A DNA stretch of 64,000 nucleotides. Origin: Thunnus maccoyii. Lineage: Eukaryota > Chordata > Actinopteri > Scombriformes > Scombridae. The notes under the pieces were generated by a model, which worked only from the letters and a program-made list of their open reading frames with translations, did no database searches and was not told where the DNA came from. Positions 2,681-64,000 of this stretch are shown one piece after another. The DNA is taken from contig NC_056543.1 of assembly GCF_910596095.1 (NCBI RefSeq), positions 26,918,542-26,982,541 on the forward strand. Direction: 5' to 3'. Positions within the stretch are counted from its first letter, which is position 1. Every line of letters starts with the position of its first letter. The position numbers and the translations under genes are program-made.

Positions 2681-2933
2681 ATGAGGCTCCTGATACTTCT
2701 TGCAGCACCTCTCTCCATCCTCGTCCTCCACATTGCACTGGTGGCCCCAGCAGGCAGCATGGCCCCGGGCCGGCTGGAGCGCTGGGTCCGCTCAGGCCTC
2801 CAGTCGCTGCAGTGGAACCAGCTGGACCGGTGCCTCCGCATGTCCTCGCTCTCTGAGGCAGAGTGCAGGAGGCTTGCCCACCTGCCACTGTCCGCTGTGG
2901 CCGTTTACGTGTCGGAGCCACGCACTGCTGCAG
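2681..2933 (+). CDS. Gene 1 exon 1: signal peptide
   Basis: The ATG at 2681 has A at -3 and opens a hydrophobic leader of about 20-25 residues. The exon ends after the first base of codon 85, at donor GTAGGG. Cysteines in DRCLRM and AECRRL start the mature Cys-containing region. Confidence 0.85.
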
Positions 2934-5900
2934 GTAGGGAGGGCAAAGGTCAAACATCACTGGGGTGCTTTAAATCATTTTATCCTGAAGGAGGGTTTGG
3001 AGGAGTTCATAGTATACTATGACAAACTGGCAGGAATCTACCAAAATGTAAAGAAAATGGGGGAAATAGAGTGCACAACCACTTTGATGAATAGTTTTTA
3101 TTGTCAGACAATACAAAAATATGATGAATATGATAGGGTTCAAAAAATGTTTGTGATATGATTAAGAAGAGAAAAATCCACTTTATGGATCATACTGATT
3201 AAGGGGTGCAAATGTCCACTCTCTCACAACTGAAAAAGTCTGAATTTGCAATTTGAAAAATATACTTTCCTTAAATATACTTATCATTTTTTCATCTTCA
3301 ATCCAGAAAAAGATGAATCCATTAATGTTGAAATTTCCCACAAAAAATATAAAATCTTAAAATGTTTTAATAATGTAAAATGTTTAAATGACGGGATGGT
3401 TTAAAACAAAAAAACTTCCATAATGAATTGCTTGATTGTGTAGTAACCAATCAAAATTTTAATGATCTGAGTGGGTAAAAACAAAATGGAAGTGGAATAA
3501 TACTTGTCCCCAAATGTTTTTACAGATTTGACTCAACTTGATTGTGTTTAATGGAATTTTTTGTCTCTTATATGGTATTGTATGGTATGGTTATATTGTC
3601 ACTGTATTACTCAATACAGTCATATCAACAGGAAGTTATTGTTTGAATGGATTATTATACCTCCAATAGTATCAGTATATATGTAGCCAACATATTGGGT
3701 ATAATAGTGTGTATAACAGCAATGAATGTGTAGCGACTTGGTATTTATTACTACTATACTACCACAATATGAGTCTTCTAATATCAAGTCTTTGGTACTT
3801 GTGTGGTATTTCCTTATCAGGATTACCACAGAATCATGGAAATGTAGTGACCCACCAATGCCACACATTGTTTTTCCTATTTTTGTAACCCTTTCAAATG
3901 GACCATTAACCTTGTATAGTTTATTTTCCTCTCTCTTGTTCCTCTCTTGTTCCCCTTGCACCCTCCAGGTAACTCAGACAAAGTGCTGGCCATCCTCCCA
4001 GACTCCTACCACTCCTCAAGTGGGATGTTGGGCTCCAAGCCGCGGGGGGGTTTCAGTGTCAACCCTATGCTGAATGGAGGGGAGAGTCCCCACAGAAACC
4101 AGCAGTCTTTCCCTGGCTCCACAGCCCATGATGCTGTGCTGGTGCTAGACCCAAGCCCTGGGGAGAACTTTGGACACCCAGTGGTCCTCTTTTATGTGGA
4201 TGTGAACGTGACAAAGAAGAGATGCTCCCATCTGGATGGAATTTATCTGGGTGAGTCAGCAGACAATCTGTACATGCACTGTTAAGTCACTATTAACTTG
4301 GTTTCAATTACTCATTACTTGCATGTATATTTAACTGTTTGATGCTGAATCATGCATTTCAGTCATGCTGTTTTTTCAATCATGTTTAATTTTTTGAACA
4401 TCTGAATTAAATGAAGAAAGAAAACATTAAAAACTTGTATTTTGCTGTAGTTAATTTTTGTATTAAAAGACAAGTCAGCCTTCATTAGGCATTTCACACA
4501 CAGCTTCCCATAGATCTTATAGCAATCATAACTGTAGTAGTGGTGTAATAGTCTAGTAGTAGTAGCAATAGTAGTGGTACTGCAGTAGTTGTAAAAGGGA
4601 AACCATAGTGATAATGGCAGATAACAGATAGCAGTGGCAAAAATCAACCCTGTGGCCCAGAAATTATGTTTACACAGCCTAATACTAATTTGCAACAGCA
4701 ACTACTTTTTCAGAGACACATAATGATGTCTAATGTTCTCAGACAACATATTTCATTTGTTTTCCAATATCTGCTGTTGCAATACAATATCCATCCGTAG
4801 CTACTACAGCAGGATTAACAGTGTTTATGGTTCCGTATAGGCACTCGCAGCACTTGGTTAATGTTACAGAAAGATTGTTGTAGTAAAAATAGGTAAAAAG
4901 GGGTTTTCCGCCCATCTTCCAACAATGTGCAGATGAATCAGGTGCTTCTCAGATCAGGGACAGCAAACCTTAGAGAGAAACAAGAAAAGTGTCTGATGAA
5001 GACTCAATAGTGTCAAAACGTTAGCCTGTTTGCACTATTAAAGGCTTTAAATCAATCAGTGTGCTCCAGTCTTTTCTATTTGTTGAAAGATTGTTGTATT
5101 GGATAAATACTGAAAAAGTCAACAGTGACTTGAAAAATCTCCTCCAGACATGTTTTAAGACATATATACAACTCTGCTTGGAATAATCATATCACAAAAT
5201 AAGTTCAAGTTATTTGTTAAAAAAGTACTATGACTCACTGTCCTTATTTGAAAATGCAGTATGTATGAATATGCAAATATTTTTCAAGTTGAACTGCTGG
5301 ACACAAGAAGTCTCCTATAACTGTAAAGTCCAGTCTCAGTGTATGTATGCAAGTTTCATATTGGGCCATGATTGGCTCCAAACTTGTTATGTCCCAAATC
5401 ACAATTAGGAACACACTTGAAATTGAGATTTAAGGTGAGCATGGAAAGACTTTCCCCCGTCAGCAGATCAACGTGAAAACAGCTTTCTAGTGTCAAACTC
5501 TGCACATACAGTATATCATTCTACACAGTGAAGCTCAAACATCCAGGCACCGAGTTTCCAAGTACAAGCACTGTAACAATATGCAAAACAGATTTGCAAA
5601 AGTAGTATCAATAGTGATAATATCACCAGCATTCATGGTAATATCATAGTGTATAAATTGCAGGTAGTAATAAAAAAAAAAAAGTAGTAAGCCAACAGTA
5701 ATATCAGTAGTATTAGGCCTGATGGTTACAGAGGTACAGTGGTAGTAGCTATTAAAATTAGCAATGTTCACTGTAGCATCAAAAGTTGTATTATAAATAA
5801 TAGTAAGAGTAGTTATAGAAGTAGAAATAGTAGCAATAACGTCAGTAGCTAATATTCCAGCAGTAGTGGTGTCATGGGTGGTGTGTATTAGGCAGCAGGG

Positions 5901-8900
5901 GAAGGACCCAAATGCAGACTATAGAGGCAAGCATGGACAGTTTAGTGAGTTTATTGTCAAAAGAGAAGATACAAAAGCTCACCGGCATGGGTGGCAAGTC
6001 CAAACAGTCCAAACAGCAGTATTAAATCCACAGAGTTGCAGGGATGAAGCAGGGAAACATCCAGACAGGCAGGCAAGCAGGTACAGATATGGTACAGGTC
6101 CAGGTAACAGGATACAGAAAACAGAAGCTCAAAAGCACTGACAAAAAGCAACATGACAACTTCAACAATCTGACAAGGGAACAAAGAATCTGGGCCGGTA
6201 TATGAAGTAAGTGGCTGACAGGAGAATGAGGTGCAGGTGGGGAGATGGGCGGGGAAGCTCAGGTGAGGGGAATGATGCGAGTGCAGTGATGCAGGGCAGA
6301 TGGGAGTGGCAGGATCTGGAAAGCAAGGAGAAAAGTCTGAGTGCATCTGGTGGACTGGTGAAGAATGGCAACCAAAGAACCTGGAAGTGGGAATGCAGCT
6401 GAAGGAAGGGACATAGAGCTAGACTGACAGGAACCCCCCCCCCAAGGGACGGATTCCAGATGTCCTTCCAGGCCAGCTAGGAACACCGAGCAGGGTGGGT
6501 GCAGGGGGTCTGGAGGAGGGATTCAGGGGCAAGTGGCCTGGGAGCTGCTAGGGAAGCCACTGGGGATCTCAGGCGGAGGGCCTCGGGGCTGGACAGGGGT
6601 GGAGCAGGAGACCTAAGGCAGACAGCCTGGGGGCTGGGCTGATGGGTGTAACAGATCTGGAGGGCGACCAGGATGGAGGACCAAAGGGCAGAGCAGGTCT
6701 GGATGAAGACAAGGAGGCAGGGCCGAAGGGACAAGTTCTGGACAACGGTCTTGATGCTGGCAAAGCAGCTCTGGAGGACGGGCAAGAGGACAACCAGATG
6801 TGCAGAGCTGGCAAAATCGGTGGGACCACTTGGAGGCCAGCGACATAGGCAGGAACGCTCTGGAGGATGGCGACAAAGGCTGGGCCATTCAGAAGGTTGG
6901 TGACAAGGCTGGAGGTCAGGAAAAGCCGGTGGCACCAGAAGATTTGGCTGCAGGTCAGGGCAGGCTGCTGGATAAGCATCTGGTATCTGGAGTGCAGCAC
7001 CGGAGGCCGGCAGCTGGAGTGCAGGACTGGTGTCAGTGGTAATCGACAGCTGAGGGTCAGGGCAGGGTGCAGGACAGGCAGACCACCGGAGTGCAGGGCA
7101 GGAAGCAGGCAGCTGGAGGTCTGATAAGGTGTCACGAAGACAGCTGAGTGATGATCAGGGAGGTCTGGCTGTTGGTCAGCAGAAATGGCCAACTGGAGTT
7201 CTAGCTGTGGGTCAGCAGAGTCAGCTGACTGGAGGTCTGGCTGGGTGTCAGCAGGGGCTGCTGACTACAGGTCTGGCTGGACGTCGTCAAGGGCAGCTGA
7301 CTGGGATTCAGGCAGGGTGTTGGCAAGGACAGCCAAAGGGGGTTCAGGCAGGTGTCAGTAGGGGTGGCAGACTGCTGAAGATTGGGCAGGACATCAGCGG
7401 TGATGGCCAACTGCTGGGGGTCTGGCAGGATGCCTGCAGAGGCGGCCGACTGCTGGGGGTCAAGTTGGACGTCAGCAGGGGTGGCCAACGGCTCGGGAAC
7501 AGGCTGGACGTTGGCAGGCTCAGAAACAGGCCGGGCATTGGCCAAGACAGCTGATGGTTCGGGAACTGGAACAGGCTGAGTGTTGGCAGGAGCAGCCAAC
7601 AGCTCAGGAACTGGAACAGGCTGAGCATCGGCAGGGGTGGCCAATGCTCAGCCTGGTGGTGCTGTGGCAGTGGAGAGGTGCTGGGCAATGGAGACTCTGT
7701 GGTGCTGGGCTGCTGAGAGAGCCAGTGGTGTTGGGCTGCTGAAAGAGCCAGTGGTGTTGGGAGCCATGGGGACCAACCTCCTTTTGGGGACTCCACAGTA
7801 CACTGTGATAATGGCAAGGCAAGTCCCTTCAAAGGGTGACCACTGGATGTCAGAGTGGCTCCTCAGGTGTTCCATATAAGGCTCCTAGGGTTCAGGAAAT
7901 ACAGGATCAGGACAGGTGAGTAGCAGGCTAGCCGGCTCAGGACAGGCAGGCTGCAGGCTCATGAACCCGAGCCTAATCAACAAGAGTGCAGGCTGGTTGC
8001 TAGCAGTCCAGGGTGCAGGCTGAAGGCTAGCAGGCTGGAGTGCAGGCTGAGATGCAAGCTGAAGGCTATCATGCTGGTGGCTATGATGCTGGTGGCTAGC
8101 ATGCGGCAGGTTAGCTGGCTAGGAAACAGGCTGAAGGTTTAGGAGGCCGGACGCTAGCAGACAAGAAGGCTAGAGCAGTCGTCAAGTCCACTGCAGTTCC
8201 ATCTAGTACTTCTGCTGGGCAAGGCCTGGAAGAAACCTCCCAGAATGCCTTTATCCCGGTGGTGTTGCTGTAGTAGTTCAAGAAAGGACTGAATGGTGTG
8301 AATTACCTCACGGAGTGCATTTGCTGGGTCCATGTTTGGTCAGATCGTTCTGTCATGGGTGTATTAGGCAGCAGGGGACCCAAATGCAGACTATAGAGGC
8401 AGGCAGGGACAGTTCAGTGAGTTTATTGTCAAAAGAGAAGATACAAAAGCTAACAGGCATGGGTGGCAAGTTCAAACAGTCCAAACAGCAGTTGTATTAA
8501 ATCCACAGAGCTGCAGGGATGAGACAGGGAAAAGTCCAGACAGGCAGGCAAGCAGGTACAGATATGATGCAGGTCCAGGTAACAGGATACAGAAAAGAGA
8601 AGCTTGAAAGCACTTACAAAAAGAAACATGACAACTACAACGATCTGACAAGGGAACAAAAGATCTGGGCCAGTATATGAAGTAAGTGGCTGATGAGGTG
8701 CAGGTGGGGAGATGGGTGGGGAGGCTCAAGTGAGGGGAATTAGATGATTGCAGTGACAGCAGGGTGGATGGGAGTGGCAGGATCTGGAAAGCACGGAGAA
8801 AAGACTGAGGGCATCTGGTGGACTGGTGGAGAATGGCAACTATGGGAAGTGGGAATGCAGCTGGAGGAAGGGACATAGTGCCAGACTGTGACAAGTGGCT

Positions 8901-11900
8901 GCAGTTGTAGTTGTGATAGTAGTCAAAAGTAGTAGCAGTGACAGCAATAGCAGCAGTAATATTAAGCTACCTCTAAGGTTGGCATGCCTGTATGTGTTTT
9001 ATTTAGTGTGAGTATAAAGTTCTGACTTTAACTGAAGCAGAAGAGAAAGTGAAAGTTGAATGTATGTGGTCTCACTCTTTGAAAGCTCCATTTATAGCTC
9101 ATTGTTTTATGTAGGACATATTCCTGCTCAGAGGGGGTTCATCCCTGCAAGCTCCTCAACACTTTTTGCCATCAGCAACACCTGAAATCTGTGTGTGTGC
9201 GTGTTTTCTTGCATTTCTATCTTTTTGAGAACCAATTTGAGTTTTAGACCTTTAGAGTGAAGACATATTTGCAAAGTGAAGACAACAGAAACTGTTTTAA
9301 GACTTAATTTCAGCATTAAGTATAATTTTGGCCAAAGCTACAAAAGCTATGAGAAGACCCAAGTTTTAATAAACCGGAACTTTCTTTCAAGTGTAGAGTA
9401 AAGGTTAAGGTAAAGCATGCAGGTCTGAATGTCCTCACTTATATGTGTAATACGTTTCATCTTCAATGTTTTCCATCCACACTTTTTTTTCTAAAAGTTT
9501 TCCATCTACAACAATTTTTTCTGTTGTCTCAATACAGATTCTGAGGAATCACTATGGAAGGTCAGAGGGGACAGTTGTTTCATAACACTTAAGGCAAAGT
9601 GAGAGTATTTTGGTCGTATTTGTAAAAGGTTTGACAATCTTACATCCGTGTTTCTGAAAAGCTCCACTTTTGGTGGTGGCAAACAACAACCTTACTGTGC
9701 ATAAAAGGCCAAAAGGGAGAGTAAAAGAAGTGTTTCAAAGTGCTTTATTAATGAAGAATTTGGTCTAAGGGGACAGGAAGTGAATGTACTCTGGCATGGT
9801 CCTCATAAGTTCTGTAAAAGAAGCATGTGTAAAGTGCAAGTTGCTGACCTCCCGCTGTGAGAGAGGTTAGGGCCAGATGTTGAGGTGAATTTGGCCCTGT
9901 GCTACACAAACACATACCTGTCAATTATTTATACTCACACACACAGCACTGTGCCCCCTGCTGGGTCCTGTAGATGGATTTGGACCAGTGTCTTTTAAAG
10001 CCAGACTGTCTTTGAACCTTATTTAACCTGAAGAGGAGAGAGGAGAAGGTAGATGGCAGAAAAGAAGAGAGGTTCAGTAAGCAGGGAGGAAAGATGGAAA
10101 GAAAGGGGAGGAGGAAATGGGAGAAGTAGAGAAGTCACTAAAGGCAAAGCTCAGAAAAGAAAGAGGATAAATGGAGAAACAGAATGAGGGACAAGGAGGA
10201 GAAAGAGAAGAAGGGAGGACGAGGAGGAGAGCAAGTGCATATGAGAATACCAATTAAAGTAAATCAGAGGTTCCATAAATGTTAATTCCAGAATGGTTGA
10301 GCTGCATTTTGTTCAATTGTAAAATGATGAAAGGGTGTAAATTTCCCCCAAAAAAGCTCTTTGAAGGCACACACACAACCAAACACAACAACAACAAAAG
10401 TTTTATTTGGCCAAGATTTGACTTGATTTGTAGGTGTCATTTTTACTATGTTTTATTCATATTTTTAACCATGTGTTCACCATCTTAAAGCACTTATTTG
10501 TGTTTTTCTGTTTTCTGTTACAAAATATCATGGATTTATTAAGAGAGCTGGATATGGTGTCGCCACTCAGCTTTGCTGCCAATTTGTCCCAGTGGCCAGT
10601 CACAGTACTGCAATGAAAAAAATCTGCAGCCCAAAAAGCATTTTCCCCATAGACCACCATTCATTTTAAGACACATCTGTAAAACTTTTGACAGGACAAC
10701 TGCAAACAAGGTTAATTATCACACTATGTATTATGCTTTTTTGCATTCATAAAGGTTTCATATTTGAAAAACTTTCCTAGAACCTAGAAAAGCATAGTGC
10801 ATGACGTCATACCAATGTAAAGTTTATGGACTGAGCAGGAACGTGTCAGCAGGAGATACACTAATGTGTATTTGCAGTAGGCCACACAATGCAGAAGCAA
10901 ACCCAAATATCTGTTTGAATACCAGATTTTAAAAATATCTGTTATAAATATCACTTTGAAATCAATGCAAATTCAGTTGGCACTGCTTCAACATCAGCCA
11001 ATCAGAGACAAGAAAATGGTCAGGTGACAAAAATATTTTGTGCAAGGTGGTGAGAGTGAAGCAATGGCTCCCTCTTTGTTGCCAGAATAATAGAAGTTGA
11101 TATTTTTTTAAGAAGACTCACATAAGCCTGCTGTAACAAACATTAATGAATCAGATAACAACATGCCATTTTTACCTTTTCAGCTGAGAAGAGAGGCCAA
11201 GCAGTGATGGAAAAAGTGTTTGTTATTTAATCCATTTTTAAATCTTCAGACACATATCTCCAACATCAGGAAATTGTGACTCTAAACCTATTCTAAAGCT
11301 CTGGATCATCACCTTCTCACACTGACTTCTGACTCTCTGTGTCCTCAGGTGAGGAGTGTTTGACTCTGGCGTTGAAGAGTCGTTGTCAGAACCAGCTGAA
11401 GCGTCGGCAGGCCGGGCCTGAGAGGCTGATTGGTAATGGCCATGGCCGCCTTGCAGGTGCATCTCTACGCAGTGGTACCATTAGTGGTCCGGTCAGCGGT
11501 GCTAGTCGTCTGGTTGAACGTGCCGTGGGAGGGCTCTGTGAGGTCCATTTCCTCCCACTGGTGGTCGGAGTGGGAGACAGCAACCGAACACAGAGACTCA
11601 GATGTGTTGGTAAGTCTCAACTCACTGCCTTTAATAGGGTTCAACAGGTCTGAACAAATCCCAGCTGATTCCTTTAGACTAACTTGATCGGAGCAGTTGG
11701 AATGCTATTTTTCCTCTATTGTTGGAGCAGTTTCCCGCTTTTTTCTTTGTCTTTGTGCTAAGCTAGGATAAACATGCCTGTGTCTCTACCGAACGCTCAG
11801 ATCAAATTAATATCAGTCTTTTCATTTAACCAAAGGTAAAACAATAAATATTGATTTATTTCTGAGAGATGGAATATCCTCGAACATAACACAGAAGAAA

Positions 11901-14880
11901 GTTGTATCAAGAGTCTGCAGCCATTCTAAAATTTGCTATAGCACTAAACACAAAGTATATCTGAGGCTGATGGAAATAACATTAATTTTATGTACTTTAG
12001 GTATTTGGTCTAATAAACTAAAGTACTGAATAATCAGACATTTCACTCAAAACCACAAATGTCGACCTTGCGGAGATGCTAGAGGATAGGTCAGGGGATC
12101 ACTTAAATCAGAAGGATTCATCCTCTGGGGACCTTGAATATCTGTATCAAATTTAATGTGAATCAATCTAATAATTTGATATATTTTCCTCAAAAGCAAA
12201 ATTGTAATAGACTATCTATCCCAAGCAAGTTTTGCTGGTTGATTTTCTAACATAGTTTTAGCTTTGAAAAGAGGATACTAATATAATGTTACATAGTTTT
12301 GGTGAAATTGGGGTTGTTACACTTCACCTGAGTTTTATAAGTTGAGTGGCATTCTGTTTCAGTTTTCCTGGTAGGAGGCTTTCTGAGTCAAATGCAGAAT
12401 TATTCTCATGTTATGCCAAGACCACCCACACCTGCAGCCTCTGCCAGCAACCTGGGCCTCGTGAGAAAAACTGCTGGGAAGAGTTTATATTGCTGTTCTG
12501 GCAAACATAGAGAATCCTCAGGATAAAATCACAAACCCACCTTTGGCATGCTACAAATATGAGGAGATAAAGTATTCCTTAATTGTTGATCATGACCCAT
12601 TCAAATCCACTGTGTGCTGAGTATACGGTAAGTTTGACTCGCCCTAATGTGAGGAAATGTGTTTAATGTTTCAACACTGGGGGTCTGCTTTATTTAGAGA
12701 TTGTTTTCAAGATAAACACATGTGCATTTTCTGTGAGGCTGATAACTTTTTAATTTCTGAAAAATTCCATGCCCCTGCCTCCTGCAGACCAGGCAGAGTT
12801 TGCAAGGTGCCCTCAGCCGCTGCCCATGGGCTCTCCCAGTTTGCCCGTCTCCAGCTGCGAGCTGAATAAAAACACCAGACGCTGCCACCAGCAGCCGCTG
12901 GCTACTCACCTCTCCTGCCGACTCTACCAGACCTGTGACCACGCTGTGCTCATCTCAGGTAGGACTTGTGTGGTATTTTTTCACATTTGGATTATTCTCA
13001 CCTGTACAATATTTCCAAAACACTAAAATGTACTTAATTTAAGTGTGGACCATGAACAGCAACATCCTCGGTCCAACTAGAGACATTCCCCATCTCTCTC
13101 TCTCTCCTCATTTCCTGTCATCCCTCTACTGTCAACTCTCTAATAAAGGCATGAAAGGGACTGCAGGGTTTGTGACATCACCCAGAGCTTTATAAAGGGA
13201 TTAATGTCTGGAACACACCACATACCTCCAACTTGTGCATATACTGTATATATACACAATGCATACTGTGTTTCAAGAGAGAAATTGTTTTTTATCCTCA
13301 ATACCTCAATACAGTAAGTTTACTTAGAGCCAGTACACTGTGCTAAATCAAGCTAATGTACGCTTGTACTGTGTGCTATGTAAGCAGAGAGCTTTATTCT
13401 CCACCCTTGCATTAGTGTAGGAGCATCTTGCATGGAGTTCAATGCTGTGAACTCCACACCTTTAAAATCCAACAAAAAGTCTAATCTCAGTAACTAGGAC
13501 TGAGCAAAGTTGGGACTATGTTCCTCCTGAGAAGCTCCCAAGATCTCCTGTTTTTCAAAAATTCTCAAGCTGTAAAAAAGTTTAAAATGTTTTTGAAAAT
13601 ATTTTTATGGTGGAAAAAAATCTGTAATGTGTATGGTTATTGTAGAGTTCATAAAACAGTGTGTGTGTGTCCGCACTGCAGGTGGCTGGCAGCAGCAGAT
13701 AACATTCCACCGTCACGTGCAGAATCTTCAGAGGTTCTACAGAATGCTCCGGATCAACGGCTTCCATAAAGATCACATCAAGACCTTCTTCGCCAGCAGT
13801 GGACAGCTTCCCGGTATGCCTTAAAAGTATGACTGCATTCACACCAAATCCGGCAATGTGGTACCTTCCTTTAGGGTTGTGAGGAGGTGTGGGCGTGTTT
13901 ATTTGTGCTTTAGAACATAACCACTGTGAAACAATCAGAAAATAACATTTTATTTCTCCGAGTCCCTGCTTTGTTCTCACTACCACCGCTCCCTCTCTTC
14001 ATTCACTCTCTAACTCATTCGACCACTGCTGCTCTCTCTCTCACTAAGGCTCTCAGCTCTCTCACGCTCTCTTTCTCTTTTTCTCTCGTCTTTTTTGAAA
14101 TGAGTCGGGGAGCTGACAGCAAAGCCTAACTTTACTTTTAACATTATCAAACGAAGAGAAATGTCCTCCCCTCAGCCTAGTAATGTCTTTGTCTTCCCTC
14201 ATGGCAGGGTTGTACAGGGCGTCTTTGGTCTGATCGCTGGCTCACGTGATTGGCCACTGCAGTGTGACTTTGAGTTGCGTTTCAGCAAAATGTGATTCTG
14301 GTTCAACTGGTTCTTCCCGCACGGCCACTGTGGTTTTTTGCTGCAGCCCATGCAGTCACCACTCCCGCAGACTATACGCACTACCTCCATTCAAACAAAT
14401 GGGAGGACTGGTGGTTTTCCTACATTGCCAGATTTGGTGTGAATGCAGCCTATGTTTGTCTGTGTTTTGGTGGGAGGTATCCGTAAAGGGTGATGTAAAC
14501 GCTGTCATTCACTTCTCAAGTGGAGAGAAAAACATCCACAGAGCACAAATGTAGAATATAATTCAAAGAAAGCAGTTGCCTTTTTTAATCATCTAAATAT
14601 CTGACAAAGTTCTCTTTACACAGTGTGATCTGGATTATTCAACCACAAATTAGGCTTTGACCTCTTTCAAGTGTTCTGACCCCTGATTTATAACATAACA
14701 TTTTAAACACAGCAACGCTGCTTCTGAAGAGTTAATACAACATGGGTCCAATTTCTGTGCCTCCCAGTTTTGCCTATGAATGACTGAATTAATGAATGAA
14801 CTTTATATATTTATATATATATGTATATATATATACATATATACATATATACATATATATATATATACATATATACATAT

Positions 14881-14959
<79 letters not shown>

Positions 14960-17496
14960 TTCCATACACAGAATGCAACTCAAAGTGCTTTACAATTCAG
15001 CAGCAAGTTTAACAAACACAAGTTAAAAACCATGCATGTACACAAGGAGGAAGGGAGAAAATAAGAACGAGTGTTATTATTAATAAAATAGCATCTACAC
15101 AGTTTCTTTGGAAAATAAAGAGAAAACAATGCAAAGATTTGAATTCTCTTTTTTCTCCTCTTGTGCTAATTTATCTCAGGAGCAAAGAAAAGCAAAGATG
15201 GAGATTGATTTAAGAGAGTTTAGAGGAAACAGCACAGAATTTAGATACCTCTAAATGAAGAAATATTATTTATTTTGCAGTAAACAAAGGAACACTGGTT
15301 GTGAGCAGGTTTTTTTTGCCATTTGAATGCGAAGAACTCCACCAAAGCTTGAACTGACCATTTCTATAACATGTATGACTCCTCTTCCTCATCTCTTTCC
15401 CACACAGAGGAGGTAGAGGGTGTCTACTCGGCAACGGAGAAAGCAGTGATCCGTAACCACGTGTCGTACGTCTGCAGGAAGCAGCACTGCGCCGACTCAC
15501 TGGTTCTCTACCTGAACTCGCCCACACGCAACGACGGCACCATGCTGCTGTGGGACGCCAACCTCAACGGCATCGTAAGATAGAAGAAGACACACACATT
15601 TATAGTGGTCAGGTGCTGAGAACAAATGGGTTATTAAAAGTGTGTGTGTGTGACAGAACAGGCTGCTGTGTTCGAAGCAAATCACCAACACAAAACAGTG
15701 AAATGATTTATCTGACACACATGGGAGCCATTATCAGCCCGATAAGGAGATAATTCTTCTGACCACACACATGCACACACAAGGACCTCCCAGACTACAA
15801 TATTTCTGTCATCACATTCAAGTTTCTAAAAAAAGAGGAAATGAGCTCACATAGTTGAAGGCAGCTATTACAGAGACATGTTTAACACAAATCAACAGGT
15901 CAGACTGGGTGCAGTAGGCTGGGGTCATGACTGTGAACAGGTCCTGGTAAACAGGATTTACAGTTTTATCTGCACTGTGTCTTTATCATCTGTTATAATA
16001 TCAGACAACACACAACGTCCAGTGATTTTGCTGTCAGAAAAATGTCAGTGGAAGTCAATGGATACAGAAGATTAGCACATTAGCTGGTGTGCTAATCAGA
16101 TATGCTAACAGCCAGACAGTGCTGGTTACATGAGAAGATAATAAGCTAGACTGCCAATATCTGAGCACAAAATCAGTCAAAGGTATCAGAGATGAAAAGG
16201 TTCCAGATCAGAAACAGACATGTCTGTTCGATAGTACAAAAACTTAACCAGCTGGTTCTATTTCTGAGGACCTCAAATTTGGCTGCTAAAGGGGCTGTTG
16301 GTGTGTCACCTGCAAATGCTGCAAGAGTGATTTAGTTTGATGGGGAACACGTGAAAAATAGATAAACACCAGATAATGCTCCCATGAACATTTATTGGTA
16401 TACCACCATGTGACATTTTGAGCGTTAAGCTTGAAATGTTATGAAACTCGCTCCCATGAAATAAATGTTCATGGGAGCGTTATCTAGTGTGTGGACTCTA
16501 TTTTTCCAACTCACATGACTTTCACAATATGTCTGCTCTTAAGGGCAACGCACACTGGTGGTGTGCCATTTTCTGTGTAAGCTCACACTCTGGCACTGTA
16601 ATGTCAGGATATGCTACTTTCCTATTTTTTCAGAGTCAATGCTCCAGAAAAGCATCAGATTTGACCCTCAAATTGGCTCATCCTGGCTACTGTACATTGC
16701 ACATTAAAAATAGTGCTACAGGTGTGAAATGATGCAGCTCTATGTGATGTGGGTGGTGTATGTTCCCCCTTACTTTGTCTTATTTAACACTTCTCTGTGT
16801 GCCCTCACCATCTTTCTCACTTAAATTCATCTTGGTTTATTGTTATGACACTTTATCAGAAACACTGCCAAAGTTTGCCTCTTCATAAAATCTAAATTTA
16901 AAACACTATTTCGCTCTGACATGTCTCCTCTTTCTCTCTCTCTCTCTGTTTCCAGGCTGATCTAAAAGAACGATACTCAGTCAACGAGCTGCTGGCCGAC
17001 CTGGCCGGCTGCAGGGCGACTCGTGTTTTGCTGTTTGTGGATCAGAGCTATAGTGGCGTTCTGTCCAAAAGGCTGCGAGGGTCACAGAAACACCTCAACG
17101 TGGTTTTGATCCAGAGCCAGACACGACAGACCCACAACCACCAGAACCAGAAGCTGAACCCAGGCTGGGAGGACAGCAGCTGGTCATACATCAGCCCTGC
17201 AACCTGCCTGCTGGACCACCTGGAAAAGGTATTTTATCACATTTAAGACTTTTTCTTCTTTTCATTTTTTTAAACAGTCCTCTAATCCCCTCTTCTTCTT
17301 CTACCAACAATTTTATCAGGGTGCTGGGATGTCTCGCCTCTTGGAGCCGTGGGCCGGCCTTTTAAACGTGACGCTGGCAGGTGCCCCCTGCAATGCCACA
17401 CCGCCACTGACGGATGGCGAGATGCGACGGGAGTACCATGGCTGCCAGAACCTGCCAACTGCACTCTGGCACCAGAAACACAGGAGGACCAACTGA
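2681..17496 (+). CDS. Secreted legumain/caspase-fold-like pseudoenzyme, 8 coding exons (571 aa)
   Basis: Join 2681-2933, 3969-4250, 11349-11609, 12788-12958, 13682-13813, 15408-15574, 16956-17228, 17320-17496. All junctions are GT/AG and the 1716-nt sum stays in frame to TGA. I do not recognise the gene by name. The N-terminus is a clear signal peptide ([20 protein letters not shown]), so the product should enter the secretory pathway. Residues about 25-310 are Cys-containing with no fold I know. Residues about 315-510 follow the legumain (peptidase C13) pattern: strand AVLISGGW, helix plus [10 protein letters not shown] (346-355), strand SLVLYL (397-402), DGTMLLWD (409-416) and strand [12 protein letters not shown] (445-456). 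Legumain has a catalytic His after the YF(T/S)DHG strand and a Cys in EACESG. Here the first reads [10 protein letters not shown], without His, and the second DQSYSG, with Ser453 in place of Cys. Four N-glycosylation sequons (NVT, NRT, NVT, NAT) fit a secreted protein. Function is unknown; loss of protease activity is inferred. Confidence 0.85.
3969..4250 (+). CDS. Gene 1 exon 2
   Basis: Acceptor CCCTCCAG, donor GTGAGTCA, 282 nt, phase 1 to phase 1. It encodes a low-complexity stretch rich in Ser, Gly and Pro, then a strand-like [10 protein letters not shown] with an N-V-T sequon and the Cys of KRCSH. Confidence 0.88.
5870..6429 (-). repeat. Left LTR (3' LTR of the element)
   Basis: 560 bp, closely similar to 8351-8893 with small indels and scattered substitutions. 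Its inner edge touches the candidate polypurine tract. Confidence 0.85.
7150..7650. repeat. 36-bp minisatellite inside the LTR element
   Basis: Imperfect units such as GGTCTGGCTG...CAGCTGACTGGA repeat at 36 bp, most clearly at 7163-7306. More degenerate units extend over about 6480-8150. The period is twelve codons, so minus-strand frames stay open and read as Pro/Gln/Ala-rich repeats (for example 7201-7644). Coding status is doubtful. Confidence 0.75.
8154..8333 (-). CDS. Possible gag-start remnant in the LTR element
   Basis: A 59-residue frame starts [12 protein letters not shown] just inside the 5' LTR and ends at TAG. The position, soon after the expected primer-binding site, fits a gag leader, but it is too short and too divergent to assign. 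It may be only a relic. Confidence 0.3.
   Translation of the reverse strand: MDPANALREVIHTIQSFLELLQQHHRDKGILGGFFQALPSRSTRWNCSGLDDCSSLLVC
8351..8893 (-). repeat. Right LTR (5' LTR of the element)
   Basis: 543 bp partner of 5870-6429. The target duplication AGTGG follows directly at 8894-8898. Confidence 0.85.
11349..11609 (+). CDS. Gene 1 exon 3
   Basis: Acceptor TGTCCTCAG, donor GTAAGTC, 261 nt, phase 1 to phase 1. It follows a 7.1 kb intron that holds the LTR element. It encodes [16 protein letters not shown], a Gly/Ser-rich linker, and [19 protein letters not shown] with one sequon. Confidence 0.88.
12788..12958 (+). CDS. Gene 1 exon 4: Cys-rich segment
   Basis: Acceptor CTCCTGCAG, donor GTAGGACT, 171 nt, phase 1 to phase 1. 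Five cysteines in 57 residues ([27 protein letters not shown]) suggest disulfides in an extracellular protein. The end, DHAVLISG, resembles the first core strand of legumain-like folds. Confidence 0.88.
13682..13813 (+). CDS. Gene 1 exon 5: first helix of the legumain-like fold
   Basis: Acceptor CACTGCAG, donor GTATGCC, 132 nt, phase 1 to phase 1. [19 protein letters not shown] matches in pattern the legumain helix-turn-strand in which an alpha helix leads to an R-N-G-I motif. A terminal-inverted-repeat element begins about 20 bp after the donor. Confidence 0.9.
13833..14448. mobile_element. MITE with inverted ends CTGCATTCACACCA
   Basis: The left end CTGCATTCACACCAAATC (13833 onward) is mirrored by GATTTGGTGTGAATGCAG ending at 14448, and the complementarity extends inward with a few mismatches. 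No coding capacity. It lies in intron 5 of gene 1, about 20 bp after the exon 5 donor. Confidence 0.75.
14806..14954. repeat. (TA)n / (TATAC)n microsatellite
   Basis: About 150 bp of TA with interspersed ATAC units, ending in a long pure TA run. Frames translating to alternating Tyr/Ile are artefacts. Confidence 0.95.
15408..15574 (+). CDS. Gene 1 exon 6: strand where a catalytic His would lie
   Basis: Acceptor CCACACAG, donor GTAAGA, 167 nt, phase 1 to phase 0. It encodes [17 protein letters not shown] and then [20 protein letters not shown]. In peptidase C13 the equivalent strand is followed by D-H-G with the catalytic His. Here that position reads N-S-P. Confidence 0.9.
16371..16485. repeat. 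26-bp inverted repeat in intron 6 of gene 1
   Basis: The arm 16371-16396 (AGATAATGCTCCCATGAACA...) pairs with 16460-16485 with one mismatch, around a 63-bp spacer. It may be a small MITE or a hairpin. Confidence 0.75.
16956..17228 (+). CDS. Gene 1 exon 7: strand where a catalytic Cys would lie
   Basis: Acceptor TGTTTCCAG after a CT-rich tract, donor GTATTTT, 273 nt, phase 0 to phase 0. [12 protein letters not shown] sits where legumain has the E-A-C-E-S-G nucleophile loop, with Ser in place of Cys. LNVVLIQSQ follows, like the next core strand. Confidence 0.92.
17320..17496 (+). CDS. Gene 1 exon 8: C-terminus and stop
   Basis: Acceptor TTTTATCAG after a 91-bp intron; 58 codons and TGA at 17494-17496. 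It holds two sequons (NVT, NAT) and two cysteines. No membrane anchor is visible, so a soluble secreted or luminal product is likely. Confidence 0.9.
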   Translation, partial: GAGMSRLLEPWAGLLNVTLAGAPCNATPPLTDGEMRREYHGCQNLPTALWHQKHRRTN

Positions 17497-32900: not shown

Positions 32901-35900
32901 AACTTGGTAGTAATGTCACCTGTGTGCGACCACTATAGTCGTCCTGTTGGTGCAGACCTTGGCCAGTGAAGCCTGGATGTTCCTCTCAGTCTGTGTGTCC
33001 AGTGAAGAAGTGGCCTGGTGGACCAAACAACATGTTAGTGGTGTTTAATCAAATGAAATACTGTTTGTTTCAATGTAAACAGAGCAACTATAATGACACA
33101 GAACAGTGAGGGGCATCAATCAATCTGACATAGACTCAGTGAGCTGGAGCAGGCATCCTCATCCAGGGATCAAGAAGATCTAAGACCCAAACTAGCTACT
33201 ACAATCAAAATCAAATCAATGTGTTACATGTTACGCCATGTCTACATAGAAAGCATTTCAGCTGTGTTTTTCAGTCGTTCGTCTCACAGAACACATATGC
33301 TTCTATTTTAATTTGGTTTGTGTTTCATCCATGTTACACATGCATAACCGCAATCCAAAGCAAGTTTTTATGTTTTAAGTCTAATTTTTTCTGTTTTATG
33401 CACGGAACTACAGTGATCTTGTGTTCAGCTTTGAGCATTGACCTACACTTGACACTGTTCCTGCTACTCTGCTAACATGCTGCTCACGCTACAGGGTTTC
33501 AGTTACTCTATGCATGTTGCATTGTTGTGAAAAACTGTACTCCAATATTTAATTGAGTTTCTTTTAATTTATGAAACAGAGCCTCATTGGATTGTAACTT
33601 CTGATAAACAGCAGCCAGTCTGTCTCTCTTCTTGTTTTCTGTGTTGAACTGAATAAGAGTAAAAAGAAAAAGCCTGTCCACAAATACCCGCATCTATATG
33701 GTACCTCTACAGTAGCTTTTTATGATATGACCTAAACATTAAAATCCTCCTCCTCTAAAATGTGTTTTACTTCTTGTTCCTTCACTTTGATGTTTGACTT
33801 TCACTGTTCAGAATGATGTATGTGCAGAGTTTGATGCTAGAAAGCTCTTTCTCTCTGTGGTCAGTTTAAATCTGACTTTGTTATGTGTACCTGTGAGTAG
33901 GATTTGTGACATCACAACTAGATCGGAGCCAATCGTGGTCCCGTATGAAACTTAGAATGGACTTTTCAGTAAAGTAGGAGATATCTGGTGTCCAGCAGGA
34001 AAACATTTGAAATGAAAGATATTTGCATATTCATAGATTCTGGATTTTTCAACAACAGCGGCACGTAGATGAAATTTTAGCAACTGTCAGACACAAATTA
34101 TTATTCCAAGAAGAGAATAAAAGAATTTTATGTCTTAACACATGTCTGGAAGGAATCTTTAACAATATAGTAACTGTGTTGCCATGTTTACATTGTGAAA
34201 AATCACAGTTCTAAAGAAATATGAGGTGACGTAAAGGGATGATTCTGCTCTAATCCTCCAAGTACACACAAAATATGCAGAAAAGTGTGTGAACAATGCC
34301 ACTCACATTGCAGCCACTTGTCTGGTCTGCTTGAACGAGTTGTTAGTCTGCAGGTTTATCAGTGCTGTAACTCTGTGTGTAAGTGTTCATATATTCTAAC
34401 CTCATCCAGCAGAATGATCCGAGGCTCTTTCAGGATGGTTCGAGCGATGGCCACTCTCTGCTTCTCCCCACCGCTGAGCTTCAGACCACGCTCCCCCACA
34501 TCCGTTTCATAACCTGGTCAGACACAAAGCCATCTTCATCATCATTATCATCATCATCATCATCATCATCACAGGATTCAAATTGGCAAAATGTCCTGTT
34601 ATAGGATGCTTTATCACCACCATCATCATTCCTGAAACACACACACCCCAGCCTGACCCTGAGGTAGCTCCATTATCCTGGTGTGTATGTCAGCAGCCAT
34701 GGCAGCTTTCTCCACCTCCTGGCGGCTCGCTGTAACTCTGCTGTAGCGGATGTTGTTGCCAATGGTGTCGTTGAAAAGAACGGTATCCTGGGGAACCACG
34801 CCGATGTGTGACCTCAGAGAAGACTGACGCACCTTAAACAGAGAAAGGGGAAAAGAAGGAGAGATTTATTACAGTTTTTAAACTAATTCACTGGTTATTC
34901 TTATCTCTTGCAGGTCAGGTCACATAGGTGGTTTGTACATCGCTCTTCACTAACAATATACAGTATGTGATCTACAGATCTGCAGGTCACTATGCAAACT
35001 TGAATAGGGGGAATTTCTATCTCTACTTGCTCTTTTTCTCTCACACACAGTATATGTCTACATAAATGTTGTATGGCTTAAGTCATCTTATACTATATAA
35101 TGCATGCTGCCCGAGGTCACAGACAGGCACACATGTCCTACACTGATTTCTGCCCCTGTCTCCCTGTCACCCTGTCTCTCTCTCCCAAGCTTTTACATAT
35201 CTGATTTTACCCACTTACCCTCTTTTCGCTTCTGTACATCTCCGTTTTAACTGAAACTTAATATGTTCGTTACTTAGCTATTGTTTCATCAAGCACACTC
35301 TAGGAAACACAACTCCCATCATATTTTGTAAAAAAAAAAAAATTTTTTAATCTTTTTTGTGTGTTACAGACAGTGTTTTCCTGGACTGAACCAACATTTA
35401 AATCAAATATTTAGGTCAAGAGTCAAGAGAAAACAACAAGCCTTCTCCATAGTGTGTGTGTTCCAATCGGGGAAATATGAGTCAAGAACCAAGAGGTTAA
35501 AAGTAGAGCTGCAACGATTAGTCTATTAATCGATTAGTTGATCGACAGAAAATTAACTGTCAACTATTTTAATAATTGAATAATTGTCTTAGTAATTTTT
35601 TAAAGCAAAAATGCTAAAAATGTCCTAGTTGCCGCTTCTCTGATGGGAGGATTTGAAGCTTTTCTGTGTCATACATGACAGTAAACTGAATATTTTTAGA
35701 TTTTGGATTGACATTTGAAGACATCACCATGTGCTCTAAGAAATGATTACAGATATTTTGCATTCATTTTTTTCTAACATTTTATGGACAAAATGATGAA
35801 TTGAGAAAATAATAAACAAATTCATCAATAATAAAAATAATCGTTAGTTGCAGCTCTAGTTAAAAGTGTGGCTTAATTTTACTAACACTGATGTAATAAA

Positions 35901-38900
35901 GGTATTGTGTCAAAGGGTGGCAACACCACAAATTTTATGAAACATTTAAGCAGTCATGGCATGAATTTAACAGTGGAGAGTTGCTCCATGTTCCATAATA
36001 ACCACCACAGCCCGCTGACCTCTGCCTAGCATGGCTGTTTAACATCATGACAAGAATACTAAGTAGTGATGTAAAGCTGTGCTGATTCATATTTTTATAT
36101 TAACAATGAATCAAATGAGTAAGTGTAATGTGAAAGGGACTGCTTGTAGTTATGAACAGAGCATTTTAGCATCTTTCAGCTCACTGTTTTGATTTTTCTT
36201 GCTCAGAAACTCCTCACTCTGATAAACCCGCTGCACGCTACTGTACCTGCCCAGCGCCACAACTGACATACAGTTGGTGACACTGGTGTAATATCAAGTT
36301 CAGCCCTACTCCCTAATATTATTAAAATAATGTAATATTACTTTTGTCCAGAGAAAGTTGGAAGTAAGTGAACGTTGTAACAATGAGGTGAAACTGTCGA
36401 CTGGATAGCAAAACTACTCACGACACCGTGCTGTTTTTCTTTAGCTTACTATTTTCAGACAGATTTTTAAAAATAAATTCTCCTATACACACTTGTCACT
36501 TCAGTTGTGAAGATCTAACATGTTTTAAATTATCTTCACCAGAAAGCAAGAGATCAAAATCCCTAACTGTTACACACTGTGTGATTTATAAGCAGACGGA
36601 GCCGACCAGAAGGGACTCCATCCAACTTGGTCTGATTGTTTTAATGTCCAAACCATGTATCGATGAAATAGTCGTAATGTGTTCCACTTTTTCAGAAGAG
36701 ACTTCGTAGAATTTCGGGAATCTAGCCCTTGATCTCTCCTGAAATAATTTCCGGTTTTAAATGACTCTCTGGTCAGTGCGCAGTACTTACAGCCTTTCCT
36801 GTGGAAAGCTTTCCTCCTCAGCCACAACAATACAAATTCCATTTCCTGCACCAGCTTGGTTTGGCTAATAATCAAACACTTTCCTTTAATTTGATCTTTG
36901 ACGTTTACTTTTGGTATTTATTCCACTCAAGAACAACACGGCATCTGTTTCTGATCGAGGCGGGCTGACAGAGCTCTAACAACAAATGTTAGAAAAAGAG
37001 AAAGAGACAGATGGAGAGGGAAAAGAAAACAAAGAGGGATAAAAACAAAAAGAGCCTTTTATTGTTTTGCATTGAAAAGGGAACAAAAGGAGGAAGAATT
37101 AGTGTAAAACAGCTGTTCTCACACAAAAGAAATAAAGACTACCATTAACGACTAAGTCAATCTGTAAGATGATGTATTTAAGATACGACCTCACCAACCC
37201 TTTCTTCTACAAAATATGTTTATATATGATTTGCCTTTGCCCAAAACATTTATTGCTGCCTGGATCACGTTAAGTGGCAATTATTTTTCCAATCCATGCA
37301 GTTATATCGCACAAAACTCAAAGAGAGCAGGTGGAGGTTGGTGGTTGGATGTTCAAAGCACTGGACTCCACCACTACTAAAACACTTTAGGTTAGGGAGA
37401 GATTATGTTTTTGTTACATATTGAAGAAGCCAAAACATCCTGTCTCATGCTTTAAGTCAGTGATAACTTCATCAATTCAATTCACATTTATATAACTGAT
37501 GAATGACAGGTTCTTGGTTCTTTTTCCTACACATAAACCTCTGTTCCTCTTCATCAGCCTGCTTTAAACCCAGCAGTGATTCAACATGACGCACAGGAAG
37601 GTGTGTCACAGCAGAACAAGAACAAACAGGTAGTTATGAGCCGTGATTGGCAGCATCACTGAGCAGGAACTAAACTAAATTGAAACGGCTGTTTGTGTCG
37701 TTTAAAGTCTAAAAAAAGCAAATCTGACTGACACCTTACACAACAAAAGCGATGACTCACACCTGCAGTTTGTAACCAGCCGTCGGCCTGCAGAGTCGGA
37801 CTTATCAGAGCTTCACCACATGTGGCTGCCATATGCAGGGACACACAGAATGATACAGGACAAATGGTCCGGAAACAAACACAGAGGTCCAGCAGACTGA
37901 GATGTGTCCACAAAAAGCAAAAAAACTGCACACACTTTAGTGCAGCAAAACTCACATGAACTATGAAAAAGAACCAATCGAGAAGCTTACTGGCAGTAGA
38001 AATTCTCCCTCCTTTAAGCTGTTGAAGCCACTAATTCACCAATTTACTTTACTACGGTTTACAATCTTAGTGAAGATAATCAGTGTGCTCTAGTGTGCGC
38101 CTTTTTCCGAGAAGCACCTGATTCAGCTGCACATTGCTGGGAGGTGAGCCGAGAGACACTTTTCATCTAGGAATAAAAGACTTGATTTGGCTAACATAGA
38201 CTGCCTCATTTTAGCTTCAGCTGAATTTAAGAACGTATTTTTGCACAGAAGGAGGACTTTGGTTTTTGTCCCCAATTTCTTAGCGTTGTAGCATTAGGAC
38301 CACTTCATGGCCTGTATAAAGAGGAGAAAGGATTACAGCAATAACTATCACAATGCAAATATGGCCATTTGAATATCATATTAAAAGGTGCAGTGTGTAG
38401 AACTTAGTGGCATCTAGCAGAAATGGAATATAATATTCATAAGTATGTTTTAATTAGTGTATAATCACCTGAAAGTAAGAATCATTGTGTTTTTGTTACC
38501 TTAGAGTGAACGCTTTATATCTACATAGGGAGAGAATCCTCTTCCACAGAGCCCGCCATGCTGCATCGCCATGTTTCTACAGTAGCCCAAAACAGACAAA
38601 CCAAACACTGGCTCTAGAGAGGGCCTTTCATGTTTTTTGCAAGTTTCATGGCCACTATAGGTTCTCCTACATGCTTGGAAGGGGGTGAGGGTGTGTATTC
38701 AGTTGGTTGCAATCTGTGCAATCTGCAATCTCACCAATAGATGGCACTAAATCCTACACACTGCACCTTTAAGACAGAAATCTGAACCTGTCCATGCACC
38801 TGCGGTCATCAGATTACGTTTGGTAGACAGAGCCAGGCTAGCTGTGTCTCCCTGCTTGCAGTCTTTATGCTAAGCTAAACTAATTACCTGCTGGCTCCAG

Positions 38901-41304
38901 CTTTACACTTAGCATACAAAAATAACAATCTTCTCATCTCAAAATGTTGAAACATTCCTTGCATTGGACTTAACATATCTCGTCATACTGACCAATTTTT
39001 ACAAGAATAATTAAAACGGAAGATGAGATAAAATGACTTGTTAAGATGGACGATGTTTTACTGTGTTAAACAGGCCAATGAATCCTTTGATGGTGACACA
39101 TTAAACAAAGTATTTATAGAGTGCAACATGAAAAGAATGGTGGATTTTAATAGAGTGACAACAGGCAACATGTGAAACAGATGGTGTGTAAAAACTGTTG
39201 GCATTAAACCCAGAGCTCCACATTCTCCTCACTCCGTAAGGAAGGTGAGACTTTATGACCACCTTGTGATCCAAAATCTTTCGTTTTTTTTTTATTCATC
39301 TTGAATATCTCCCACCTATTCTCAGACGTGATTGAGCTGTTAAAACTGAATTATCGTGCAGTTTAATAGTTTATTTTATTATGGCTGTTCTCTTTTTCAC
39401 CTCCATTATTCTTCTCTATAACAAATAACTCAGATGACGACATAATGTAGCTATTAAAGGGGATGTATCATGCACATTTACAGGTTTATGTTTATATTCT
39501 GGGACTCTACTGGGATATCTTTGCATGATGTACAGTTTGAAAAAAACTCCTTATTTATCTTAATCTTTATGCTTCTGTCTGAAACAGGCTGGTCTAGCTC
39601 CTCTTTCTTTAACGCCCCCCTCCTGATGAGCCCACTCTGTTCTGATTGGTTAGCATCCAGAAGCTGCATCTCAGCAGACATCCTGAGGCTGGGGTGGTTA
39701 TACCTAAAGAAACAATAGTTGTAGGATTTCGCTTCTTTTTCTGGTTCTCTTCTTGAAATGGAAACTTCTCAAATACATCAGTACATGTTTGAGCTACAAT
39801 CTGATCCGAAATACGCAGGTGGGCAATGTCAACAACCTTAGCAACAAAGGCTATGGAAGGGACAGCCATTGTGGGCATGTGCAAACAATCTGACATCACA
39901 AGTAGAGGTAACTTTGCAAATGAAGCATTCAGAGCGGGCTGAAGCCTGGGCTATTGACTTGTAAGGAGCATTTTTACATATGTTTTGGGACTTTGACCAT
40001 GTTACACAACCAACAGTTCAGTTACAATCTTTGTCAGCTACTAGACCCATATCATATAATCATAATTTACAATCATAATTTGGGATAAAAAAGGGTAGCA
40101 TGGGTTATGCTGAGGTTTGATAAGCAAGCAGTAACCATTGCAGCTGAGTGTGACACACTGAGACAAGCACAGCCCCAAAACATACCATACATCTCTCTTA
40201 TCGTGACTCTTAATATATGTCATTGCTGCAATACACACAGAAAATCCAGCAAGGTGTGACATCACCCATCGGTTTGCATTGCAGCCAGTTTGAAGCCAAG
40301 AGTTGTAGCTTACGGTTGGCGCCATCTATTCGTTCAGAGCCAGAACCTTCCAGATAAGGAACTGGGAACTGGGAACACTGAGCACTGCACACTTTGGCTA
40401 ACGTTAGCTACTATAGTCCGACTGAGTACGAGTCCCGGAGCCGAGGAGAGCAGCAGGTGAGCCAAATATCAATCACAGCTGTCAATCAACGCCCACACGG
40501 CAGACATCAAAGCTACTATATGTCTTCAATTCTTATTAACAGAGCAATTGTTTGAATTAGCAGTGGTGAATTAGTAGTGTATAAAAGGAATTTCTGAGAG
40601 ACACGGTTGGTCAAAACATGACAAAACCAACCTTTAGAATTTGCTGCTGAACACTGAACTATCTACAAGTCTGTTTTTATAATAAATGTTTTCTGTTCTT
40701 CCTGGCATAAAAAAATGCATATAAATAGAAAAATGCACGACTACAGATGATAGTCAATGGATGAAGAGAGAATTGGCGGAAAAATGTTTTGTGAATTTTA
40801 ATTGTGGCCTCCAGAAAAAGCAGAGGACGTTAAGGAGTTTCACCACTTCCTGCTCCTCCTCCTGCTGGAGAAGGTTAAAAACTAGAATGACAAACAGTCT
40901 GACTCTAATTAAAGAGAATACCACATGTTTGTGTGTGTGTGTTGATTAAATGGTCCTCCTGCTGTGTAATTATAGTATAAACGAGGGTCCTCATAATCAT
41001 CACCAGCCTCTTCATCTGAACAGCATGTTTGAAGTACTAAAACAGGTGTGCATGTGTATGAGTGTTGTGAACTGCTTGTGTTGTTCGGTTTTTATTGAGA
41101 CTTTTGGCAAATCATAAACAGAGTTACTTCATCTACAATAAATGGGCTATCTTTATACATACACACACACACACACACACACACATACACACACACACAC
41201 ACACATACACACACATCTGGCGTCTGGACTCGTTGTTACATTATTCACAAACCTTTTACTATGATTTATTCACAGTGTGACTGGAGCTCACACACTCAGC
41301 CCAG

Positions 41305-41366
<62 letters not shown>

Positions 41367-42428
41367 CTGTACGAGAGAGAGAGAGAGAGAGAGAGAGGAA
41401 AAGTGGAAGACAAGGTGCGTGAGGCAAAAGCAGGAAACAGCAATGAAGAGTGAGAGACAGAAATACAGAGAAAGAAGGAGAAACAGACATGAATCATAGA
41501 GATATAAATTCAAACAAAAGAGAGAGAGAAATGTAGTTTCAGAAACATTTTGGGAGTTAGATGAGATTGACAACATTCTCATATCTGTCGATTAAGTATG
41601 AATGATAGCTTAGCATAAAGACTGGAAACGGAAAATATCCACCTACAAGCACCTCTAAACAGTTGCCTGGGAGGAGGCAAATTAATCTGAAAGTCTGGAA
41701 GAATTGTTGGCAGTAATAATTTGTACTTAAGGAGTTAAAACAAGCAAAAGTAAAAAAAAAGCTGCTTGATTTGTGGTGAATTAAGGTGTGTGTGTGTGTG
41801 TTTGTGTGTGTTTACCTTGGAGATGTCCTGACCGTCAATGCGGATGCAGCCACTCTGAGGGTCGTAGAATCTGAACAACAGACGCAGGATGGAGCTTTTA
41901 CCTGATCCAGATGGACCAACCTGTGCTCACACACACACACACACACATGCACGCACACACACAAAGGTAAAACTGTCAGGAAAAACACACAATATACCTG
42001 ATTTCTATCAGTGCCACAGTTACATCCTCAGTGACAAGCTTGTACACTGGCTCTGATTGGTTGACAGACGCTACAGACATATTATTGAAAAGCTCAGTCT
42101 CAACTTTCATTATGTGTTCTCAACACAAAATCAACAACAAAAATCTCTTTCCAGAAACAGTGACTTCCACTGTCTCACTAAACACACTGTCAACAGTTTG
42201 AATGGGGACTTTTTCTTTGGTAGAAAGTAGTTCCAATGAATAAATCTCAGAGACAGATATCTCCAAACTTGAGCAAATAAAACCAAAACGATCTACATGA
42301 CTGGATACCACTAGACATTAGACTTTACAGACAATAGAAACATAGATGTTGTAAACAGGTGGAAACTTACCAGAGCAACTGTCTGCCCCGCCTCCACCTT
42401 AAAGCTCACATCTCTGAGAACCTCAGCG

Positions 42429-42500
<72 letters not shown>

Positions 42501-63673: not shown

Positions 63674-64000
63674 TCACAGTGTGTTTCCCATACTGCTGCT
63701 CACCAGCCCCTTGATATTGGTGATAGGCCGAACATCGTGCAGCTGTCTTCTTCGGTCAATGAACGTGGCCAACCGAGTCGTGTCCAGAGGCGTCTTGGAG
63801 TACTCCCCGCCATGAGCGCCCCCGCGACCCACCCATGGGTGCTGCAGACAGGACGTAGCACTTGGCCTCTTCCTGGGATCCTGCTGGAGCACCGAAGACA
63901 CAAAATCCCTCGCTGCCTGGCTCACGTCGCGGAAGTATTCATCCGGGAAACAGAAGTCCAGGCGGCAGATGTTGACGCAGGTTTCCTCTGGTGATTCATC
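63674..64000 (-). CDS. kalrn: Kalirin-type RhoGEF kinase, C-terminal end (partial)
   Basis: An open frame runs from the window edge to TGA at 63676-63674 (108 residues). Kalirin and TRIO are large Rho guanine-nucleotide exchange factors with a C-terminal Ser/Thr kinase domain. Visible are ETCVNICRLDFCFPDEYF, VSQAARDFVSSVLQQDPRKR then PSA with the conserved subdomain XI Arg, CLQHPWV, and the tail LDTTRLATFIDRRRQLHDVR then PI. The tail fits the kalirin/TRIO family. CLQHPW, YSKTPLDT and the end after DVRPI fit kalirin better than TRIO. Fish have two kalirin copies and I cannot say which this is. The rest of the gene lies beyond the right edge. Confidence 0.85.
   Translation of the reverse strand, partial: DESPEETCVNICRLDFCFPDEYFRDVSQAARDFVSSVLQQDPRKRPSATSCLQHPWVGRGGAHGGEYSKTPLDTTRLATFIDRRRQLHDVRPITNIKGLVSSSMGNTL

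Follow-up and report, generated by a model that had tools for sequence, protein, structure and literature searches.

Our results suggest, with a probability that we put at roughly 0.7, that a gene of eight exons in the window (the whole stretch of 64,000 nucleotides that was analyzed) codes for a secreted, N-glycosylated pseudo-protease, whose C-terminal clan CD domain is closest to bacterial proteins resembling peptidase family C13 and would serve in extracellular binding or as a scaffold. The exons, all with GT-AG borders, lie at window positions 2681 to 17496 on the + strand and splice to one open frame of 571 amino acids, in agreement with the clean splice sites described in an earlier sequence-only reading of the same DNA. 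That reading had taken 12935 to 17228 as the feature; this span codes for residues 315 to 513, the C-terminal domain, and the whole gene is the longer interval. An in-frame TAA lies 11 codons 5' of the ATG, with no ATG in between, and the stop codon is TGA (17494 to 17496). Contig C11, on which the window is located, belongs to a genome of 782 Mb in 54 contigs, whose size, intron-rich genes, and gene neighbors would fit a teleost. The exons are as follows.

2681 to 2933, + strand: exon 1, residues 1 to 84, with the start codon and a signal-peptide-like leader (splicing, upstream TAA, hydrophobicity).
3969 to 4250, + strand: exon 2, residues 85 to 178, in the N-terminal half, of no recognized family (GT-AG borders, open frame).
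11349 to 11609, + strand: exon 3, residues 179 to 265 (splicing, open frame).
12788 to 12958, + strand: exon 4, residues 266 to 322, with the domain starting at about Cys315 (12934 to 12936) and the strand HAVLIS (hhalign and hmmsearch).
13682 to 13813, + strand: exon 5, residues 323 to 366, opening with GGW; Arg333-His334 align with Arg44-His45 of legumain.
15408 to 15574, + strand: exon 6, residues 367 to 422; Pro405 (15521 to 15523) in the position of the relatives' catalytic His.
16956 to 17228, + strand: exon 7, residues 423 to 513; Ser453 (17046 to 17048) in the position of the relatives' catalytic Cys.
17320 to 17496, + strand: exon 8, residues 514 to 571 and the TGA; the tail has two sequons and leaves no room for a C-domain of the legumain type.

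Intron 2 (7.1 kb) holds two direct repeats of about 480 bases each (5904 to 6389 and 8376 to 8857), pieces of which are 86 to 95% alike, about 2.47 kb apart and with a G-rich part in the middle. This arrangement (5904 to 8857) resembles a mobile element with terminal direct repeats.

The protein has 18 cysteines and four intact N-X-S/T sequons, at 164, 257, 529, and 538, as had been read before. Residues 4 to 22 are hydrophobic, with a mean Kyte-Doolittle value of 2.64, far above the best 19-residue stretch past residue 30 (only 1.38), so that the signal peptide proposed earlier stands as a signal-peptide-like leader, judged by sequence alone. The protein is thus predicted to be secreted and N-glycosylated. 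No Pfam family matched the N-terminal half of about 290 residues, and its best PDB match (E = 0.039) was not significant and was disbelieved.

For the 571-residue protein as a whole, neither Pfam nor NCBIfam yielded a family at E values up to 10, the curated models PF01650 (peptidase family C13) and PF00656 (C14) gave no match, and a single-sequence phmmer search of PDB gave nothing significant (best E = 0.36). We therefore built profiles of our own. The C13 profile had 83 rows, consisting of 80 of 320 confirmed prokaryotic legumain-type loci, the legumain of this fish, and two plant enzymes; the C14 profile had 26 bacterial domains (27 were parsed from 36 loci, and L103, translated out of frame, was left out). 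The fish domain scored 10.6 bits with the C13 profile and 11.1 bits with the C14 profile, and in neither case did any of 2,000 shuffles of the domain reach the score (best, 7.4 and 6.9, respectively), hmmsearch having returned a score for 1,370 to 1,607 of the 2,000 shuffles in such controls and none for the rest. With the C13 profile the whole protein scored 7.2 bits, and 186 open frames that were scored from the same bacterial loci reached 4.3 at best. A widened C13 profile gave 10.8 bits, again reached by 0 of 2,000 domain shuffles (best, 7.1), but one of its rows was cut far too long, and we place no weight on it. With hhalign, the C13 alignment was local, with 37 columns at a probability of 54 (a global run aligned nothing useful), and the C14 alignment had a probability of 46. 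The C13 match lies mainly in strand 1 and helix 1 (GGW...), and the C14 match runs from DGTMLLWD through the nucleophile-loop motif, where the profile has DxCxSG and the fish has Ser for Cys; the two matches fall at opposite ends of a single fold, in the correct order. In an unguided tblastn search, 2 of 72,556 plasmid records matched, but their E value of 5 is by itself not significant. The one that was examined (L015) has a Pfam caspase match of 19.4 bits, under the cut-off of 21.4, and aligns with the fish nucleophile loop at its DSCFSG site: VDSCFSGVLRKDL.

The elements of a clan CD (caspase/legumain-type) peptidase domain occur in their proper order in residues 315 to 513, with VLISGGW at 319 to 325, DSLVLYL at 396 to 402, DGTMLLWD at 409 to 416, and the nucleophile-loop motif at 445 to 456; all the legumain-core motifs quoted in the sequence-only reading are in the protein in the order stated. 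Three agreeing alignments with related domains place Ser453 in the catalytic Cys column and Pro405 in the catalytic His column, in accordance with the earlier observation that the His is absent and that Ser453 replaces Cys. Pro405 is followed by Thr406, where relatives have glycine after the catalytic His. Arg333-His334 align with Arg44-His45 of legumain, whose S1 residues are Arg44, His45, Ser216, and Asp231 and whose C-terminal prodomain (LSAM) has about 110 residues (PMC4357240). The loop after strand 5, which carries Ser216 and Asp231 in legumain, is not recognizable in the fish domain and gave no confident alignment, so that the S1 pocket is kept in part; just 58 residues follow the domain, and a legumain-type prodomain is absent. 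With Pro405 for His, Ser453 for Cys, and an unrecognizable substrate loop, the domain should not cut peptide bonds and is predicted to be without catalytic activity. Both substitutions may vary among orthologs.

The nearest relatives were bacterial. A search of one bacterial phylum with the Pfam C13 model matched 9 of 111 genomes, and two proteins seemed by eye to be closer to the fish protein. Pairwise BLASTP with one of these gave 33 bits (E = 1e-6), a single comparison that is biased by the prior choice. When the eye-picked protein was searched against 282 genomes, 46 matched at E values up to 0.001, and 30 loci were used; we label these 30 bacterial C13-like proteins (L144 to L173), and also their profile, M13. 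The fish domain scored 28.4 bits with this profile (best of 2,000 domain shuffles, 8.6) and the whole protein 27.7 bits (best of 2,000 full-length shuffles, 7.3); reversed sequences scored below zero. An hhalign comparison with M13 covered residues 315 to 460 at a probability of 86. When the profile was run on the 2,390 open frames of at least 100 residues found in the loci and in the window, three among the first 60 frames (8 to 60 bits) stood above the fish protein, all from clan CD loci (L131, 36.4 bits; L115, 32.3; L136, 31.3), and legumain-type loci among these frames scored 12 to 23 bits. When the fish domain was combined with seven M13 domains, the resulting profile, dominated by its bacterial rows, matched GSU0716 (2.5e-6), legumain (8.4e-5, profile positions 2 to 217 of 226), and metacaspase-4 (0.0038) in PDB.

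The fish domain is 21 to 25% identical to seven aligned M13 proteins and shares with M13, in the same order, GG, SH..HL (RHVQNL in the fish), PAT (SAT), DTLLxY (DSLVLY), ISLW (MLLW), SVxEL, and QC[FY]SG (QSYSG). Of the M13 proteins, 29 of 30 keep the catalytic His and all 30 the catalytic Cys, whereas the fish domain has neither; since hmmalign failed to place it on the M13 model, the fish columns rest on the three other alignments. Where legumain has the loop with Ser216 and Asp231, the seven aligned proteins also have a CGxxS/A..(D/E)R..(Y/T)GC-like loop, with CGxxS..DR..YGC in most of the M13 rows aligned, that the fish lacks, and the N-terminal half of the fish protein differs from theirs. 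L163 has Gln in the catalytic His column with the Cys kept, possibly a second, bacterial loss of activity to judge from this substitution. L146 (838 amino acids, with an open 3' end) scores above the Pfam PF01650 cut-off and adds PDZ and AhpC/TSA (thioredoxin-like) domains; L157 (707 amino acids) is under the cut-off. The literature search found no paper on the combination of PDZ, AhpC/TSA, and C13-like domains.

In sequence, the fish domain resembles these bacterial C13-like proteins more closely than it does vertebrate legumain. The legumain fold proposed earlier holds as clan CD homology, by profiles with shuffles, but the nearest group is the bacterial C13-like one (28.4 versus 10.6 bits). 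Legumain (C13) and the fish domain are alike in strand 1, in helix 1 with the S1 Arg-His, and in the overall order of the core; unlike legumain, the fish protein lacks the catalytic His and Cys and LSAM, its substrate loop is unrecognizable, and the score is 10.6 bits. The bacterial caspase-like C14 proteins share the DxCxSG loop and the preceding helix and strand (11.1 bits), but the catalytic residues are lost in the fish and the M13 match is better. A maximum-likelihood tree of 57 rows (13 of the 26 C14, 13 of the 83 C13, all 30 M13, and the fish domain) grouped the fish domain with M13 against C13 plus C14 (support, 97/86), a placement that is unsure because the fish branch is very long, at 2.13 changes per column. 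The legumain of this genome lies on contig C16, and a genome search with the 571-residue query, in which the best candidates were considered, returned the gene's own exons (8 rows), so that the gene was found once. One further row (L013, E = 0.145) has an internal stop, was judged by eye to be a chance match, and was rejected as a paralog. A search of the fish genome with an M13 protein gave no match at E values up to 10; it missed the present gene as well and so excludes nothing about paralogs.

Because the tree separates the two, legumain is on C16, and the gene was found once among the best candidates, the present gene did not arise by recent copying of legumain. That it is a diverged vertebrate legumain copy acting as a decoy, for example by keeping cystatins or substrates from legumain, is unlikely. 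The score with the legumain-type profile, higher than that of any shuffle, and the kept S1 Arg-His would fit such a decoy, but the M13 profile scores far above the legumain-type profile, the tree sets the domain apart from legumain (97/86, with a long branch), the genome's legumain is on another contig, and only 58 residues follow a domain in which the Ser216/Asp231 loop is not recognizable.

It is quite unlikely that the gene is degenerating into a pseudogene, or that the exon model is partly wrong, with exons 1 to 3, for instance, belonging to another transcript. A 7.1-kb intron 2 with repeats would be in keeping with this, as would the failure to find an ortholog in the collections searched, but all eight exons are open in the coding frame, with consistent phases and canonical splice sites, and GC3 is high (0.52 to 0.84 in exons versus a GC content of 0.29 to 0.45 in introns).

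We consider it very improbable that the protein retains enzyme activity, with Ser453 acting as nucleophile and another base standing in for the lost His. Ser453 does occupy the nucleophile position of a well-kept loop, VDQSYSG, but Pro405 stands in the catalytic His column with Thr406 for the next glycine, and the substrate loop is not recognizable. We know of no clan CD enzyme with a Ser nucleophile.

The structure prediction that had been proposed as a check was made for exon 7 alone. AlphaFold2 (AF2) gave a pLDDT of 54.9 and, over the first 53 residues, the helix-strand-helix-strand order that was expected; Foldseek was uninformative on this low-confidence model (best E = 0.59). Another alpha/beta fold with a coincidental order of motifs is the least probable explanation. 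It would accord with the lack of a curated family match and of any clan CD chain among the best 50 of 213 Foldseek matches of the exon 7 model, but 0 of 2,000 domain shuffles reached the score with the C13, C14, or M13 profile and the M13 alignment spans the domain.

The earlier proposal of a pseudo-protease with a legumain/caspase-type domain is upheld by the profile searches against C13 and C14 that had been suggested for it, with their shuffle controls, and by the loss of both catalytic residues. Residues 315 to 513 would be a clan CD peptidase domain related to family C13, with Pro405 in place of the catalytic His, Ser453 in place of the catalytic Cys, and no recognizable substrate-binding loop after strand 5, so that cutting of peptide bonds is not expected. 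Joined to the N-terminal half of about 290 residues, it may act as an extracellular binding or scaffold module. Because both cutting residues are lost, binding rather than cutting would most likely be its role, and this is the simplest reading since the core is kept, the nucleophile and base are gone, the substrate loop is not recognizable, and the protein looks secreted. We conjecture that the remnant of the cleft at Arg333-His334, or the surface of the domain, binds a protein partner. c-FLIP is an inactive caspase-fold protein, intracellular and a member of C14; like it, the fish protein would keep a peptidase fold without catalysis, but the fish protein is predicted to be secreted and is C13-like.

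No name for the gene was obtained from its neighbors. On the - strand, 34362 to 53220 holds exons of an ABC transporter, which we take to be ABCB6-like, with ABC_tran matches at 34362 to 34517 and 41738 to 41926 and a weak MTABC_N match, under cut-off, in 52804 to 53220. The end of a protein kinase domain, presumably SPEG-like, lies on the - strand at 63677 to 63997 (Pkinase, 29.7 bits, slightly short of the cut-off, 31.7). No paper was recognized, by its title or the start of its abstract, as describing the protein itself, and among the papers listed by a narrow literature search, which does not prove absence, none described a secreted pseudo-protease with a clan CD domain in vertebrates. In the collections searched, mainly prokaryotic and viral records, no ortholog was found; none of 27 matches of exon 7 peptide patterns in viral contigs, or of 24 matches of domain peptide patterns in genome contigs, was confirmed.

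Besides legumain, the GPI transamidase subunit is a C13-related line. Our results raise the possibility, to which we give somewhat less than an even chance, that fish carry a third such line, descended separately from a lineage that is otherwise only bacterial here, in which catalysis was lost and which now serves in extracellular binding. Should orthologs retain the core and in every case lack the catalytic pair, the caspase/legumain fold would have a conserved, non-enzymatic use outside the cell. That use would have escaped the curated models tried and would have an origin distinct from that of legumain.
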